A stretch of DNA of 64,000 nucleotides, taken from NCBI RefSeq assembly GCF_024138125.1, contig NZ_CP099993.1:2914001-2978000 (forward strand), written 5' to 3'. Origin of the DNA: Halorussus salilacus (GTDB taxonomy: Archaea; Halobacteriota; Halobacteria; Halobacteriales; Haladaptataceae). Below are positions 1,560-29,236 of the stretch, one piece after another. The position numbers and the translations under genes were made by a program. A model generated the notes under the pieces. That model was not told the origin of the DNA and did not search any database. It worked only from the letters and a program-made list of their open reading frames with translations. The number at the start of each line of letters is the position of its first letter. Positions within the stretch are counted from its first letter, which is position 1.

Positions 1560-1780
1560 GACCACTCCACCGACGAGAGACCGCAACCACATGCCTCCCC
1601 AGCCAGCTCCCTCGCTCCTTCCAGTCGCTCGGTCGTTCCTCACGCGGGAATGGCGCGCGCTGGTGCGGGCCGCGGTTTGGCCCGCACCATCTCCGCGCGA
1701 GGGACGAGTATCACAGGGCCTGCCTGTGGCAGGCCCGAGAAACGCAGTCGGTTGGGGAGGGTGTGGCCCGCGGTCGCGGT
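1560..1780 (-). repeat. Dispersed intergenic element, copy 1 (body)
   Basis: This is a long imperfect palindrome: the bases near 1570-1605 (GAGACCGCAACC... CTCCCCAGCC) pair with those near 1749-1790, and an inner GC-rich hairpin lies near 1650-1695. Read on the minus strand it aligns with a block at 18640-18840: both have GCCACAC-CTCCCCAACCGACT, then TCGTCCCTCGCGCG, then a GATGG-GCGG hairpin, then CCAGCGCGCGCC. I see no reading frame with haloarchaeal acidic composition here, so it is treated as non-coding. Confidence 0.6.
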
Positions 1781-2004
1781 GCGGTCTCTCAGAGGTGTCG
1801 GGAGTAGTGCGGTCTCTCAGAGGTGTCGGGAGTAGTGCGGTCTCTCAGAGGTGTCGGGAGTAGTGCGGTCTCTCAGAGGTGTCGGGAGTAGTGCGGTCTC
1901 TCAGAGGTGTCGGGAGTAGTGCGGTCTCTCAGAGGTGTCGGGAGTAGTGCGGTCTCTCAGAGGTGTCGGGAGTAGTGCGGTCTCTCAGAGGTGTCGGGAG
2001 TAGT
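1781..2004 (-). repeat. Tandem array, 8 identical copies of a 28-bp unit
   Basis: Copies begin at 1781, 1809, 1837, 1865, 1893, 1921, 1949 and 1977, with no differences seen. Each unit starts GCGGTCTCTCAGAG and ends GGGAGTAGT on the plus strand. Read on the minus strand the unit (ACTACTCCCG...GAGACCGC) matches the left end of the dispersed elements at 18636 and 29772, where it occurs once. The array is therefore an expansion of that element's terminal unit. Because 28 is not a multiple of 3, long open frames through it are artefacts. Confidence 0.95.
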
Positions 2005-7955: not shown

Positions 7956-9521
7956 TCACTCCAGATAGCCGAGTTCCCGGAGCCGGTCCTTTACTTCGCC
8001 CTCCCGCTCGTCGTCGCCCGCGACCCCCTCGCCGTCACCCGTGACCGCGTCGTCGCCCGCGAAGTCGTAGGTCTCGGGGTCGCGTTTCGCGGGGTCGGAA
8101 CCCTCGGCGAACACGTCGAGGACCTCGCCGGTCGTCGATTCGGGAATCCGGTAGCCCAGCGCGTGGAGGACGGTCGGCGCGACGTCGGTGATGTGTGCGC
8201 CCTCGACCGTCCCGTCGCGGAACGACGGGCCGCGAGCGAGGAAGATGCCCTCGCGGGCGTGGCCGCTGGTGTCGACCTCGAACAGCACTTCCTCGGCGTC
8301 GAACCGCGAGGAGGCGTGGACCTCCGGCGTCTCGATGACCATCGCGAGGTCGGGCGTGTGGGGACCGCCGCGGTCGAGGCGCTCGAAGCGCACGTCGAGG
8401 CCCGCGGCGTCTGCGGCGTCGCCGAGCGCGCGCTCGGCGACGCCGCAGACGCGCTCGATCTCGTCGGGGTCGTCGGCGAGCGCGTACACCAGCGTCGTCT
8501 TCTGGCCCACGTCGGCGAGCGCCTCCGTCTCTGGCCAGTCGATGCGGCCCGTGCTCAGCGCGTTGTCGAGGCCGAGGGCGTCGCCCGTCGGGACGCCGGT
8601 CAGAGCGCTCTCGGGCACCAGCTTCCGGGCGAGCGTGAGCAGGCCGACCTTCCCGAGCAGGTCGCTTGCGGCGTCGCGGGCGGTCCCGAGCGCGGCCTTG
8701 GTCGCGTCCCCGGACTCGGTCAGCGAGACGAGTCCGGCGCGTTCGAGGGCGACGTTCGGCGCGAACTTCGCCCGGACCTTCTCGAAGCCGTGGTCGCTCA
8801 TCACCACGAGGTCCTCGTCTTCGTGAGCGTCGAGGAACTCCCCGAGGCGCTCGTCGACGCGCCGGTACACCTCGAAGACGGGATTGCCGGAATCGGCTGG
8901 CGGGGTGCTGTCGGCCCCCCAGTAGTGGTGGGCCACCCGGTCGGTCGCACGAATCAGTCCGACCGCGAGGTCCGGGTCGTCGCGCTCGACGAAGTGCTCG
9001 AACGCCTCGAAGCGCTTGTCCACGAGTTCGAGGCTCAGGTCCACGTAGGCCCGCGAGCCGGGCCGCTCGTCGTTGCGGAGCTTGTACTCGCCCACCACCT
9101 CCTGAAGCTCGTCCCAGCGCTCGGGCGGGTGGGCGTACTCGTCCTTGTACTCGGGTGCGGCGGCGATTATCGTCCCCTCGATGGCCTGCCACGGGTACGA
9201 GCCGGGGATGTTGAACACCACCGCCGACCCGTTCTGGTCGTCGACGGCGTCCCACATCTTGCCGGGGACGAACTCGTCGTGGCTCAGGTCGTTCTCGCGG
9301 GTCTCCCGGTTGAAGTGGGTGAACCCGTACATGTCGAGGTCGGTCGGCTCCCGGCCGGTCGCGAACGCGGGCCACGCCGGGACCGTGATCTCGGGGACCG
9401 TGCTCTCCAGTTCCCCGCCCACGCCCTCGTCGAGCAGGCGCTCGAAGTTGGGGAGGCGGCCGGACTCCACCCACGGCTCGATGAGCGAGAGGGTCGCGCC
9501 GTCGAGTCCGAGGACTATCAT
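7956..9521 (-). CDS. Alkaline-phosphatase superfamily protein, type I phosphodiesterase/nucleotide pyrophosphatase-like
   Basis: A 521-residue cytoplasmic-type protein (no signal peptide or membrane helix). The metal-site pattern is visible: N-terminal Gly-Leu-Asp-Gly-Ala, a Thr nucleophile in Glu-Ile-Thr-Val-Pro-Ala-Trp-Pro (about residue 48), Met-Ser-Asp-His-Gly-Phe near 250 and a late Ser-Gly-His-Ala near 430. ATG at 9521 is chosen because the conserved Ile-Val-Leu-Gly-Leu-Asp strand follows at once; a TTG at 9548 would add nine unconserved residues. It overlaps or abuts the flippase gene downstream. The C-terminus ends Leu-Gly-Tyr-Leu-Glu, shared with six other proteins in the window. The substrate is unknown; the context suggests a glycan or lipid-linked phosphodiester. 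Confidence 0.85.
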   Translation of the reverse strand: MIVLGLDGATLSLIEPWVESGRLPNFERLLDEGVGGELESTVPEITVPAWPAFATGREPTDLDMYGFTHFNRETRENDLSHDEFVPGKMWDAVDDQNGSAVVFNIPGSYPWQAIEGTIIAAAPEYKDEYAHPPERWDELQEVVGEYKLRNDERPGSRAYVDLSLELVDKRFEAFEHFVERDDPDLAVGLIRATDRVAHHYWGADSTPPADSGNPVFEVYRRVDERLGEFLDAHEDEDLVVMSDHGFEKVRAKFAPNVALERAGLVSLTESGDATKAALGTARDAASDLLGKVGLLTLARKLVPESALTGVPTGDALGLDNALSTGRIDWPETEALADVGQKTTLVYALADDPDEIERVCGVAERALGDAADAAGLDVRFERLDRGGPHTPDLAMVIETPEVHASSRFDAEEVLFEVDTSGHAREGIFLARGPSFRDGTVEGAHITDVAPTVLHALGYRIPESTTGEVLDVFAEGSDPAKRDPETYDFAGDDAVTGDGEGVAGDDEREGEVKDRLRELGYLE

Positions 9522-9641
9522 GTCCGAGCGAACGCGGGGGGTCGCCAAAAGGGGTTTGGTCCCGCTTCGAAGGTGTGTTCGATGGGAGGTCCGTGGTCGC
9601 AGGTGGGACTCCTACGGAATAGAGTGACTTCGGCACCAACA

Positions 9642-9777
9642 CTCCGAAAGCCCCCGCCCGGTCGCGGTCGCTCTGGCGGATATCCGCGCCTCACAACACC
9701 GCATCGGCGCGGATAGGGCCGCCAGAGACGACCACGGCCTTCGGCCGCGACCGGGCGGCCCCTTTCAGTCCCACCCG
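9642..9777 (-). ncRNA. Candidate structured RNA element, copy A
   Basis: Read on the minus strand, the element starts GGGTGGGACTGAAAGGGGCC and ends GGGCGGGGGCTTTCGGAG. An outer stem pairs GCCGCCCGGTCGCGG with CCGCGACCGGGCGG, and an inner stem pairs CTCTGGCGG and ATCCGCGCC with GGCGCGGAT and CCGCCAGAG. A second copy at 28777-28908 keeps the same flanks and inner core but changes both arms of the stems together, which argues for selection on base pairing. It lies between two minus-strand phosphatase-family genes. It could be a small RNA, a 5' leader element of the downstream gene, or a mobile palindromic repeat; transcription is not shown. Confidence 0.5.
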
Positions 9778-9839
9778 TGGTTCGGGTCACCGGGCGTTTT
9801 CGGCGGCTGTGTCATCGAGCGCGGTCGCCCGAGAAATCG

Positions 9840-11447
9840 TCACTCCAGATACCCCAAATCGGAGAGTCGCTCGGCCACCTCGGCGTCCTCGGTCGACTCG
9901 TGCGCGCCGACCTCGTACTCGGGGTAGGACCGCGGCTCGGGGGCCTCGACCGCCGGAAGCGCCTCGCCGTCCATCAGGTCTGCGGGCGCGATTCCGAGGG
10001 TCGCCAACACGGTCGGAGCCACGTCGAACAGGTGGGGGTCCCCGAGGTCGGCGTCGGCGTCCACGCCCTCGCCCGCGAGCGCGACGACGCCGTGGCGCTT
10101 GTGGTTCCACGGTTCGGGGTCGCCGAACTGCTCGCCGACGAGCGCCGACAGCGAGTGCCGGAAGTCGGTCGGCACCGCGAGCACGTCCACCGCCTCCTCG
10201 GCGTAGGGGCCGTCGATGTACTCCTCGCGGGGGACGACCTCCTCGAAGACGGGCGTCCCCTCGGGCGTGGTCGCGCTCGACAGCAGCGAGATTATCTCCT
10301 CGCGCACGCGCTCGTACTCGTCTGCGGGCACGACCCCCTCGGGGTCGCGGCCCTCGACGTTGAGCCGAACTCCCAGTTCGGAGGGCGACCGGAGGTACGC
10401 CCGCGAGGCCGCGAAGTCCACCGCGTCGCTCGCGGCGAACACCGCGCCGACCGGGACGTGGCGGCCGACGAACGCCGCGAGGCCGAGGCGCTCCAGAATC
10501 GCCTTGCCGCGCTGGTAGGTCAGGCCGAAGTCTGCGGCGGTCGCCGCGAGGCGTTCGAGCAGGGGACGGCCCGCGGGACGCGGGCCGTCCCCGCCCTCGG
10601 TCAACTGCTCGTCCTTGATCTGGAACCACGAGGGCACGCCCTGTCCGTCCGTGGTCGTCTCGACCACGCCCGCCTCCCGGAGGAACTCGTTGACCCGGAA
10701 CTCGCGGCCGTCGTACTCGCCCATGCCGTGGTCGCTGGCGACGACGACGGTGTCGGGGTCGCAGGCGTCGAGTATCTCGCCGATTTGCTCGTCCACCGCC
10801 CGATAGATGGCCCGCACCTTCTCGCGGTCGCCGGGATAGTCGTGGAAGACGGCGTCGGTCTTCTGGAACTGGACGAACCCGAACTCGGGTTCGAATCGGT
10901 CGGCGAGGTACCGGAACGCCTCCCCGCGCATCCGGGCGAGTTCGAGGTAGTCGTCGAACCGGTCGTCGCCCGCGGTCTCGTCGGTCTCCCGGCGGGCGTA
11001 GACGCGGTAGTCGCCCACCGCCTCGCGCACGTCGTCGAGGATTCCCTCGGGGTGACACGGCGGGTCCTCCGGAGCGAGGTAGCCCGGAATCACCGCGCCG
11101 TCGATGTCGGGCGGCGGACTGGTGACCGGCGCGTTGACCACGACGCTGGTCAGGCCCGCCTCGTCGGCGTACTCCCAGAGGGTGCGCTGGCGCACGTCGG
11201 TCGCGTTCACGATGTCCCAGTCGTAGCCGTCGAACCGCAGGAAGTCGAAGACGCCGTGCGTGCCCGGGTTGGTGCCGGTGTACAGCGAGGGCCACGCGCT
11301 CGCGGTCCACGGCGGAATCTGGGACTCCAGTCGCCCGGCCGCCCCGTCCTCGAACAGCGATTCGAGGTGGGGCAGGTCGCCGTCCTCGAACAGCGGTCGG
11401 AGCACGGGAAAGCAGGCGGCGTCGAGTCCGACCAGGAGCGTCTGCAT
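9840..11447 (-). CDS. Alkaline-phosphatase superfamily phosphodiesterase-like protein
   Basis: A 535-residue protein closely resembling the one at 61468-63108. Both share an N-terminal Leu-Leu-Gly-Leu-Asp-Ala type strand, a Pro-Pro-Trp-Thr-(Ala/Pro)-Ser-Ala-Trp-Pro-Ser nucleophile segment (Thr near residue 58), then Asp-Gly-Tyr-Asp-Trp-Asp. Metal ligands are seen in Ala-Ser-Asp-His-Gly-Met-Gly-Glu-Tyr and a late Asn-His-Lys-Arg-His-Gly. No signal peptide is present. It is known as a phosphatase/phosphodiesterase superfamily member; a role in trimming or transferring phosphoryl groups on surface-glycan precursors is inferred from context only. It ends Leu-Gly-Tyr-Leu-Glu. Confidence 0.85.
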   Translation of the reverse strand: MQTLLVGLDAACFPVLRPLFEDGDLPHLESLFEDGAAGRLESQIPPWTASAWPSLYTGTNPGTHGVFDFLRFDGYDWDIVNATDVRQRTLWEYADEAGLTSVVVNAPVTSPPPDIDGAVIPGYLAPEDPPCHPEGILDDVREAVGDYRVYARRETDETAGDDRFDDYLELARMRGEAFRYLADRFEPEFGFVQFQKTDAVFHDYPGDREKVRAIYRAVDEQIGEILDACDPDTVVVASDHGMGEYDGREFRVNEFLREAGVVETTTDGQGVPSWFQIKDEQLTEGGDGPRPAGRPLLERLAATAADFGLTYQRGKAILERLGLAAFVGRHVPVGAVFAASDAVDFAASRAYLRSPSELGVRLNVEGRDPEGVVPADEYERVREEIISLLSSATTPEGTPVFEEVVPREEYIDGPYAEEAVDVLAVPTDFRHSLSALVGEQFGDPEPWNHKRHGVVALAGEGVDADADLGDPHLFDVAPTVLATLGIAPADLMDGEALPAVEAPEPRSYPEYEVGAHESTEDAEVAERLSDLGYLE

Positions 11448-28035: not shown

Positions 28036-28694
28036 GGATACGCGACAGGCTCCGGGTCTCCGATAGACGCCAGCGGCAGTTGACCCGCGTCATGGAGGTG
28101 TGTCTCGTCGGCGTCTTCTTCATCGGTCTGGACCGGGGCAACCCCGGCGTCGTCGTCAACGCCGGAATCGCGTTTCTGGTCACGTTCCTGCCCGCGGTAC
28201 TCGAACGCGACTACGACATCCCGATGGACGCCGGGCTCACCCTCTGGATCACCACCGCGGTGTTCCTCCACGCGGTCGGGACGCTCGGGCCGTACAGTTC
28301 GCGGATGACCGTTCTCGGCATCGGCTGGGACAACGTCACCCACACCCTGTCGGCGTCGCTGGTGGCCGCCATCGGCTACTCGACCGCGCGCGCCATCGAC
28401 CGCCACATCGACGACGTTCACCTCCCGCCGAAGTTCATGTTCGTGTTCATCCTGCTGTTCGTCCTCGCGTTCGGCGTCGTCTGGGAGGTCCTCGAGTTCG
28501 CCATCGGCGAGGCGGCCGCGATGTTCGGGACCGGCACGGTGTTGACCCAGTACGGCCTCGAAGACACCATGAAGGACCTCATGTTCAACACGGTCGGCGG
28601 CATCATCGTCGCGGTCTGGGGGACCGCCTACCTCACCGACGTGGTGGGCGCGCTAGAGGAGCACCTCGACGGGCGCGACCAGCGGGCCGACTGA
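28032..28694 (+). CDS. Polytopic membrane protein, YjdF/DUF2238-like
   Basis: A 220-residue protein with about six helices. Polar residues in the membrane region include Gly-Trp-Asp-Asn-Val-Thr-His-Thr-Leu-Ser (about 100-109), Val-Trp-Glu-Val-Leu-Glu-Phe (about 152-158) and Asp-Thr-Met-Lys-Asp-Leu-Met-Phe-Asn-Thr-Val-Gly-Gly (about 178-190). This Asp/His...Glu-x-x-Glu...Asp-x-x-x-Asp...Asn-x-x-Gly pattern is like the YjdF/DUF2238 family, whose function is unknown. Translation is coupled to the preceding gene. Confidence 0.75.
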   Translation: MRIRDRLRVSDRRQRQLTRVMEVCLVGVFFIGLDRGNPGVVVNAGIAFLVTFLPAVLERDYDIPMDAGLTLWITTAVFLHAVGTLGPYSSRMTVLGIGWDNVTHTLSASLVAAIGYSTARAIDRHIDDVHLPPKFMFVFILLFVLAFGVVWEVLEFAIGEAAAMFGTGTVLTQYGLEDTMKDLMFNTVGGIIVAVWGTAYLTDVVGALEEHLDGRDQRAD

Positions 28695-28705
28695 ACCGGG
28701 TTCGG

Positions 28706-28768
28706 CCGGTGACACAGTCCACGGTGAATCTGCCGGTGACACAGTCCACGGTGAATCGGCCGGTGAAC
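28706..28768. repeat. Tandem 27-bp repeat, 2.3 copies
   Basis: CCGGTGACACAGTCCACGGT continues as GAATC and is repeated at 28706 and 28733, with a partial third unit at 28760. It sits just before structured element copy B. Confidence 0.85.
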
Positions 28769-28776
28769 CATTCTCC

Positions 28777-28908
28777 CGGGTGGGACTGAAAGGGGCCGCC
28801 CGCTCGCGTTCTACGTGGTCGCCTGCGCGACCCCTATCCGCGCCGCGCGGTGCGGGAAGGCGCGGATATGTCGCGTCAGCGACCGCGAGCGGGCGGGGGC
28901 TTTCGAGG
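28777..28908 (+). ncRNA. Candidate structured RNA element, copy B
   Basis: It begins CGGGTGGGACTGAAAGGGGC and ends GGGCGGGGGCTTTCGAGG, as copy A does on the minus strand at 9642-9777. The outer stem pairs GCCGCCCGCTCGCG with CGCGAGCGGGCGG. The inner stem pairs CTGCGCGAC and ATCCGCGCC with GGCGCGGAT and GTCGCGTCAG. Compared with copy A both arms of each stem have changed in step. It lies on the same strand as the dodecin gene, 127 nt upstream of its ATG. It may be an independent small RNA or a dispersed palindromic element. Confidence 0.5.
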
Positions 28909-29035
28909 TCTGCGTTGCTGTGTTTCCTTCCGAACTCCCGGTACGAACCCAGCGCAGACGCGCAGAACTCCCGGTGAGAGCGATTCCTATCGGGCGAGTA
29001 ACTTTACATTCCTGTGCGCCGAACTGACACGCGCT

Positions 29036-29236
29036 ATGGTCTTCAAGAAGATCACGCTCATCGGCACGAGCCCCGAGAGCTTCGACGAGGCGGCAGACGA
29101 CGCCATCGACCGCGCGGAAGCGACGCTGGACAACATCAAGTGGGTCGAGGTCGACGAACTCGGCGTCGAACTCGCGAGCGTCGAGGACCGCGAGTATCAG
29201 GCAGAGGTCACGGTGGCGTTCGAACTGGAGGAGTAA
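29036..29236 (+). CDS. Dodecin (flavin-binding protein)
   Basis: A 66-residue protein starting [16 protein letters not shown] and containing Ala-Ile-Asp-Arg-Ala-Glu-Ala-Thr-Leu and Trp-Val-Glu-Val. This is very like the Halobacterium salinarum dodecin, a 12-mer that stores riboflavin and lumichrome, with the flavin stacked on the conserved Trp (residue 36 here). An A/T-rich AACTTTACATT at 29000-29010 lies 26-36 nt before the ATG and is the likely TATA region. Confidence 0.95.

Follow-up and report, generated by a model that had tools for sequence, protein, structure and literature searches.

Two hairpin sequences in the 64-kb window, the whole stretch of Halorussus salilacus DNA that was analyzed, are probably copies of a hairpin element of Halobacteriales that is dispersed, modular, and non-autonomous, is comparable to REPINs and BOX elements, and spreads in trans. 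A preliminary description had reported them as an element present twice, with stems that differ in sequence and remain paired. Both copies were found at the places it gave, and the stem differences with retained pairing are real. Copy A is a nested hairpin extending from GGACTGAAAGGGGC to GGGGGCTTTC with a type I core (9646..9771, minus strand; 119.6 bits with the covariance model), and its conserved 5′ block reaches to about 9777. It is preceded by 5′ units consisting of GCGCTCGATGACACAGCCGCCG, CCCGGTGACCCGAACCACGGG, and then TG (9772..9822, minus strand), and most other copies are preceded by the same units. Copy B, also a nested hairpin with a type I core, occupies 28783..28904 on the plus strand (125.8 bits) and follows two 27-bp units, CCGGTGACACAGTCCACGGTGAATCKG, and a third, partial one (28706..28782, plus strand). 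On the minus strand, copy A is flanked upstream by a gene for a phosphoesterase-like protein (9840..11447), used as an orthology flank, and downstream by the gene for a related phosphoesterase-like protein (7956..9521). A membrane-protein gene (28092..28694, plus strand) lies upstream of copy B and a small dodecin-like gene (29036..29236, plus strand) downstream of it. The folding energies were −94.7 kcal/mol for copy A (z, −7.0) and −83.5 kcal/mol for copy B (z, −3.6), and neither value was equaled by any shuffled sequence. With up to three mismatches allowed, the end block GGTGGGACTGAAAGGGGC occurred only in copies A and B, 0.05 matches being expected in the 64-kb window. A third full copy was not found in the window with the covariance model, the next-best score being 26.5 bits.

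In the genome as a whole, the element is present not twice but in more than 100 copies. In 3.6 Mb, the end block GGACTGAAAGGGGC has 66 exact occurrences, a number that rises to 111 when one mismatch is allowed, and the reversed-pattern control gave 0 matches. Placement is essentially all intergenic, with one copy within a gene. A covariance model, R1, built from 43 copies of the H. salilacus genome gave matches in 151 of 293 genomes of Halobacteriales, spread over 52 of the 87 genera; the best 12 to 18 candidates per genome were scored, and counts per genome are therefore to be read as “at least.” Further covarying copies were thus obtained by the search of haloarchaeal genomes that the preliminary description had proposed. 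When 197 genomes from across the phylum were sampled, a match was obtained in 12, all of them within Halobacteriales. The congener G008 gave no model match among its best 12 to 18 candidates. Exact 22-nt hits were largely in Halorussus. The element is also carried on haloarchaeal megaplasmids. Viral carriage was considered and rejected, since the 17-nt end pattern had no match in IMG/VR viral contigs. An Rfam scan of the window, also proposed earlier, gave no match at gathering thresholds, and relaxed thresholds gave none of note for either core type, so the element is not a known Rfam family. Searches of the literature, both by end-block sequence and by general terms, returned no paper containing these sequences and no description of the family, so that by these searches it is undescribed so far. 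The main text of a REP survey that includes archaea has no word starting with “halo” (PMC12306157).

The element is modular: small hairpin units on the 5′ side precede a large nested hairpin, which is followed by repeated 3′ units. One to several 5′ units, with a consensus of about CCGGTGACACAGTCCACCGGGAATCGG, are followed by the fixed block GGGYGGGACTGAAAGGGGC and by an outer stem that is usually formed by CCGCCCGCTCGCG and its complement. After the outer stem comes a left-side bulge, which may contain a small hairpin, and then the inner stem. The type I internal loop consists of three or four nucleotides, is rich in C, and lies opposite one T; beyond it are a TATN/NATA stem, a variable apex, and the returning arms. 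The fixed end GGGGGCTTTC closes the hairpin, and in many copies GTAGCGAGCGGGCGGGGGCTTTC is repeated downstream with a spacing of about 35 nt. Between the two ends, only GAAAG/CTTTC is inverted, and the opposing GGG/GGG is unpaired. In the type II core, GACGACGCAAGCACCGCAG...GAGGAGCGCAGCGAG replaces the inner part while the ends are the same, and the internal loop carries the conserved motif GCAAGCAC / GAGGAGCGCAG. This core is found mainly in other families and is present in the H. salilacus genome too. Whereas the 5′ and 3′ units are repeated in variable number, the large hairpin is single or reduced, minimal forms retaining the outer stem alone (L004, L030, and L049) or no stem (L055 and one element in L049).

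Pairing throughout this structure is maintained by covariation. Among the 43 H. salilacus copies, 97.4% of cells were standard pairs, and 24 pairs had changed on both sides, yielding 185 double-changed cells. None of 500 shuffles reached any of these values, and they were lost when the paired column was displaced by 1 to 3 positions. An alignment of 81 distinct copies from other genomes, fitted to the model, was 97.7% paired and contained 416 double-changed cells. Type II cores covary likewise (24 of 27 pairs in an independent RNAalifold fold). The invariant blocks described earlier held for the two ends, which are fixed; those in the middle covary across the family, with TATC/GATA changing to TCTC/GAGA or TATT/AATA. 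The original argument from covariation is stronger than it first looked, and the object to which it applies is a dispersed mobile repeat. The further step, that compensatory change with invariant blocks identifies a functional RNA, is unsafe here, since such change is also common in REPINs, which are mobile DNA (PMC3116915).

The mismatches that are tolerated in the stems carry a strand signal. On the sense strand, G-U outnumbered A-C by 84 to 21 (p = 4e-10, with cells treated as independent, which they are not fully), the separate ratios being 42:11 for type I copies of other genomes, 32:5 for type II, and 10:5 for the H. salilacus copies. A mutational origin of the excess in C>T changes on the sense strand was rejected, as the unpaired 3′ units show 2 C>T and 12 G>A changes. 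Pairing that is kept on the sense strand with tolerance of wobble points to selection on the folded sense strand, either as RNA or as one DNA strand. The excess of G-U pairs gives no means of telling RNA apart from one strand of single-stranded DNA. Judged from the pairing pattern together with the orientation of the copies, the folded sense strand appears to matter, most likely as RNA, and an RNA-level role for it is likely. To this extent the earlier proposal of a structured RNA stands: the predominance of G-U over A-C and the bias toward sense orientation described below both fit RNA.

Much of the difference in stem sequence between copies is due to block replacement of the hairpin interior. 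In Halorussus amylolyticus (G010), 47 elements were read, 12 of which share site and orientation with elements of the H. salilacus genome. The flanks of these 12 sites are 72 to 90% identical (most of them 80 to 90%), and the element ends are identical in most of the pairs. The orthologous interior was the closest H. salilacus copy at 2 of the 12 sites and ranked 2nd to 72nd of 77 at the others, and one shared site had switched its core from type II to type I. In a further case, L018 and L019, which lie 8 kb apart in opposite orientation, have identical exteriors and entirely different hairpin interiors. The outer stems, in turn, are homogenized genome by genome: at one of their pairs, H. salilacus has C-G in 44 copies and G-C in 5, versus 7 and 25 in G010 (Fisher p = 5e-10). 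Such a pattern is concerted evolution that includes the exchange of blocks. Stepwise compensatory change also occurs alongside block exchange, and the vertically kept pair L278/L047 displays three double changes and one step from G-C to G-U. It should be noted that strong covariation in a multicopy intergenic element may stem from block exchange and not only from stepwise compensation.

Gain or loss of the element involves a whole block, about 0.3 kb in length. At locus A, the block at approximately 9564..9838 (minus strand) is missing in G008, G009, and G012 (L188 versus L190, L191, and L193); on one side of it is the stop codon of a phosphoesterase-like gene, on the other the CCAAACCCCTTTTGG region of the phosphoesterase-like gene that follows. 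A block is also missing upstream of the dodecin gene, at approximately 28695..28990 on the plus strand (L158 versus L160, L161, L163-L172, and L175), where congeners with the same neighboring gene order have a short spacer instead of the block of about 300 bp present here. Locus A of H. amylolyticus contains the element and then a different gene, which in H. salilacus comes after another element, L011, suggesting rearrangement at the repeat. The L012 and L048 sites are occupied in H. salilacus and G010 and empty in G008, in which the two genes at the L012 site are 30 to 40 nt apart; since the three genomes are nearly equidistant, gain and loss are not fully separable at these sites. A 7-kb stretch of G002 contains three identical 120-nt copies, and similarity on the 3′ side is lost close to their ends. 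No clear target-site duplication was seen at the empty-site junctions that were read, the unit arrays blurring the boundaries.

These observations bear on the reading of copies A and B as a duplicate gene for a small RNA acting in trans, which would explain their stable fold and covariation. As a stand-alone two-copy gene it is refuted by the number of copies and by the sites found empty, the element being a dispersed intergenic repeat whose orthologous sites are empty in relatives. Interiors are swapped wholesale, one congener (G008) appears to lack the element, and no promoter was seen at the 5′ ends of the element blocks. We therefore consider such a gene very improbable.

Gene context was evaluated with gene calls from a simple codon-usage script, so that single assignments may be wrong. 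In co-directional gaps, 88 copies are oriented with the genes and 36 opposite to them (p = 3e-6), a moderate bias of 71%. The copies are spread among gap classes approximately as gap length predicts, and they stay at least about 90 nt away from start codons. This arrangement could reflect a host cis-acting RNA, such as an intercistronic or 3′-UTR stabilizer, a processing site, or a terminator, that is useful to the adjacent gene and spreads by recombination between copies. The sense orientation bias, the wobble tolerance on the sense strand, the conserved internal loops of both cores (the C-rich bulge opposite U in type I and the loop motif in type II), and the position of copies after a stop codon and ahead of the following promoter would all be expected of it. 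However, convergent gaps are not enriched and divergent gaps hold 48 copies, no T-run follows the hairpin, orthologous sites are empty, and G008 gave no model match among the candidates scored. In addition, the 36 copies that oppose both flanking genes are a poor fit with a required role in the transcript. A cis-acting function of this kind is possible, though we regard it as doubtful.

For the element spreading in trans, we propose that the folded sense strand, most likely as read-through or 3′-UTR RNA and less likely as single-stranded DNA, would be recognized in trans. The trans-acting factor would recognize the fixed ends together with the conserved internal loops and, in combination with recombination between copies, would fill new sites and rewrite old copies. 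The moderate orientation bias, the 36 copies opposed to both neighboring genes, the lack of a clear target-site duplication at the empty sites that were read, and the negative outcome of the driver searches with Y1 transposases and reverse transcriptases count against this proposal. A Y1 transposase was rejected as the driver. The number of PF01797 (Y1_Tnp) genes was not correlated with copy number (Spearman, 0.05; p = 0.73), and PF01797 is absent from ten of the genomes that have 8 or more exact copies, including G010 (51 copies) and G035 (68 copies). This result weighs against a DNA-level element of the REPIN type, in which a single-stranded hairpin is moved by a Y1 transposase of the IS200/IS605 or RAYT type. 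Such an element would share the fixed ends, the compensatory hairpin, the intergenic placement, the tandem units, and the head-to-head pairs seen in G018, G046, and G053 with a spacing of about 36 bp, but with Y1 genes missing from copy-rich genomes we find it improbable. A retroelement whose RNA is mobilized by reverse transcriptase was likewise rejected, as PF00078 was found in 0 of the 59 genomes searched, that of H. salilacus included. A more specific possibility is a structured archaeal RNA element that moves and rewrites itself in place. A trans-acting system would recognize its fixed ends and internal loops and, at sites already occupied, would substitute the hairpin interior of another copy, without detectable reverse transcriptases and independently of Y1. 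This possibility is in our estimate unlikely.

The element could also be seen as an ordinary MITE or the remnant of an insertion sequence, whose marks are inverted repeats at the termini and duplication of the target. Such a sequence would likewise be short, non-coding, and mobile, would have inverted ends such as GAAAG/CTTTC, and could be found on megaplasmids. Its interior, however, would not need to be kept paired, whereas here the whole interior is paired with covariation. Arrays of 5′ and 3′ units are present, no clear target duplication was seen at the junctions read, whose boundaries these arrays blur, and a longer relative with the same ends was not noticed among the loci examined. We assign this origin a low probability.

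REPINs are hairpin-forming REP doublets of bacteria that are associated with RAYT transposases (PMC3116915). The element resembles them in being dispersed, extragenic, high-copy, and non-autonomous, in forming tandem clusters and inverted pairs, and in having two fixed ends around a variable middle of which only the hairpin fold is conserved, through compensatory change. It differs from them in its archaeal host, in copy numbers that do not track Y1 transposases, in ends (GGACTGAAAGGGGC and GGGGGCTTTC) that are not paired matching palindromic REPs, in a nested core with conserved internal loops and interiors swapped in place, and in its sense-strand wobble and orientation bias. The element works like a REPIN or BOX element, yet with ends that are not paired REPs and no cognate Y1 enzyme it falls outside the REPIN definition.

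BOX elements of Streptococcus pneumoniae are modular intergenic repeats with 5′, middle, and 3′ modules, some present in variable number, that form stable stem-loops. Separate modules, tandem repeats in variable number, and gain or loss at orthologous sites are common to both; unlike in BOX, the core of the large hairpin is free to vary as long as pairing is retained, and a sequence relation is not claimed. Non-autonomous derivatives of IS200/IS605 and omega RNAs, which are common in haloarchaea, combine hairpin ends with a structured RNA located close to the end of the mobile element. In contrast to these derivatives, the element contains no tnpA or tnpB, and its copy number is uncorrelated with Y1 genes. 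One copy is a neighbor of a tnpB-like gene: in L015, at about 1660-1950, it immediately precedes a right-end hairpin of the IS200/IS605 kind (GAAAGCCCCGCCCTTCAGGGCGGGG) and a reading frame resembling TnpB. With the structured RNA families of Rfam, the element shares covarying helices and conserved loops.

Dispersed hairpin repeats are well studied in bacteria and, to our knowledge, little described in archaea. A large family present in roughly one of every two Halobacteriales genomes sampled offers a natural test of the turnover rate of dispersed hairpins. As G008, match-free among the candidates scored, stands beside lineages with dozens of copies, the search for the driver becomes a direct genome comparison.

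Several minor observations concern the neighborhood and internal organization of the element. Other common haloarchaeal hairpins (CTCGTGAGCGAAGCGAACGAGG and GGAGGACGCGGTTTGTCCTCC, for example) sit within its loops in L017, L020, L039, L040, L050, and L063, and such insertions result in nesting up to four deep. Pairs of elements arranged head-to-head, with 5′ ends about 36 bp apart, were observed in G018 (L087/L093), G046 (L094/L099), and, several times, G053, and they resemble inverted REP doublets. The sequence GTGGGACTGAAAG may resemble the 3′ end of haloarchaeal CRISPR repeats. A second dispersed repeat has the form GCGCGAGGGACGAGYATCRCAG-[hairpin]-CGAGAARCGCAGTCGGTTGGGGAGG with a GC-rich palindrome in front. 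It occurs in the window at about 1640-1790 (plus strand), about 1594 (minus strand), and about 18702 (minus strand) and also in L003, L029, L035, L051, L067-L069, L077, L078, L086, L088, L097, L132, and L140. A loose pattern located it at 41 places in the loci examined, often directly 5′ of the hairpin element, and the internal-loop motif RAGNANCGCA is common to this repeat and the type II core.
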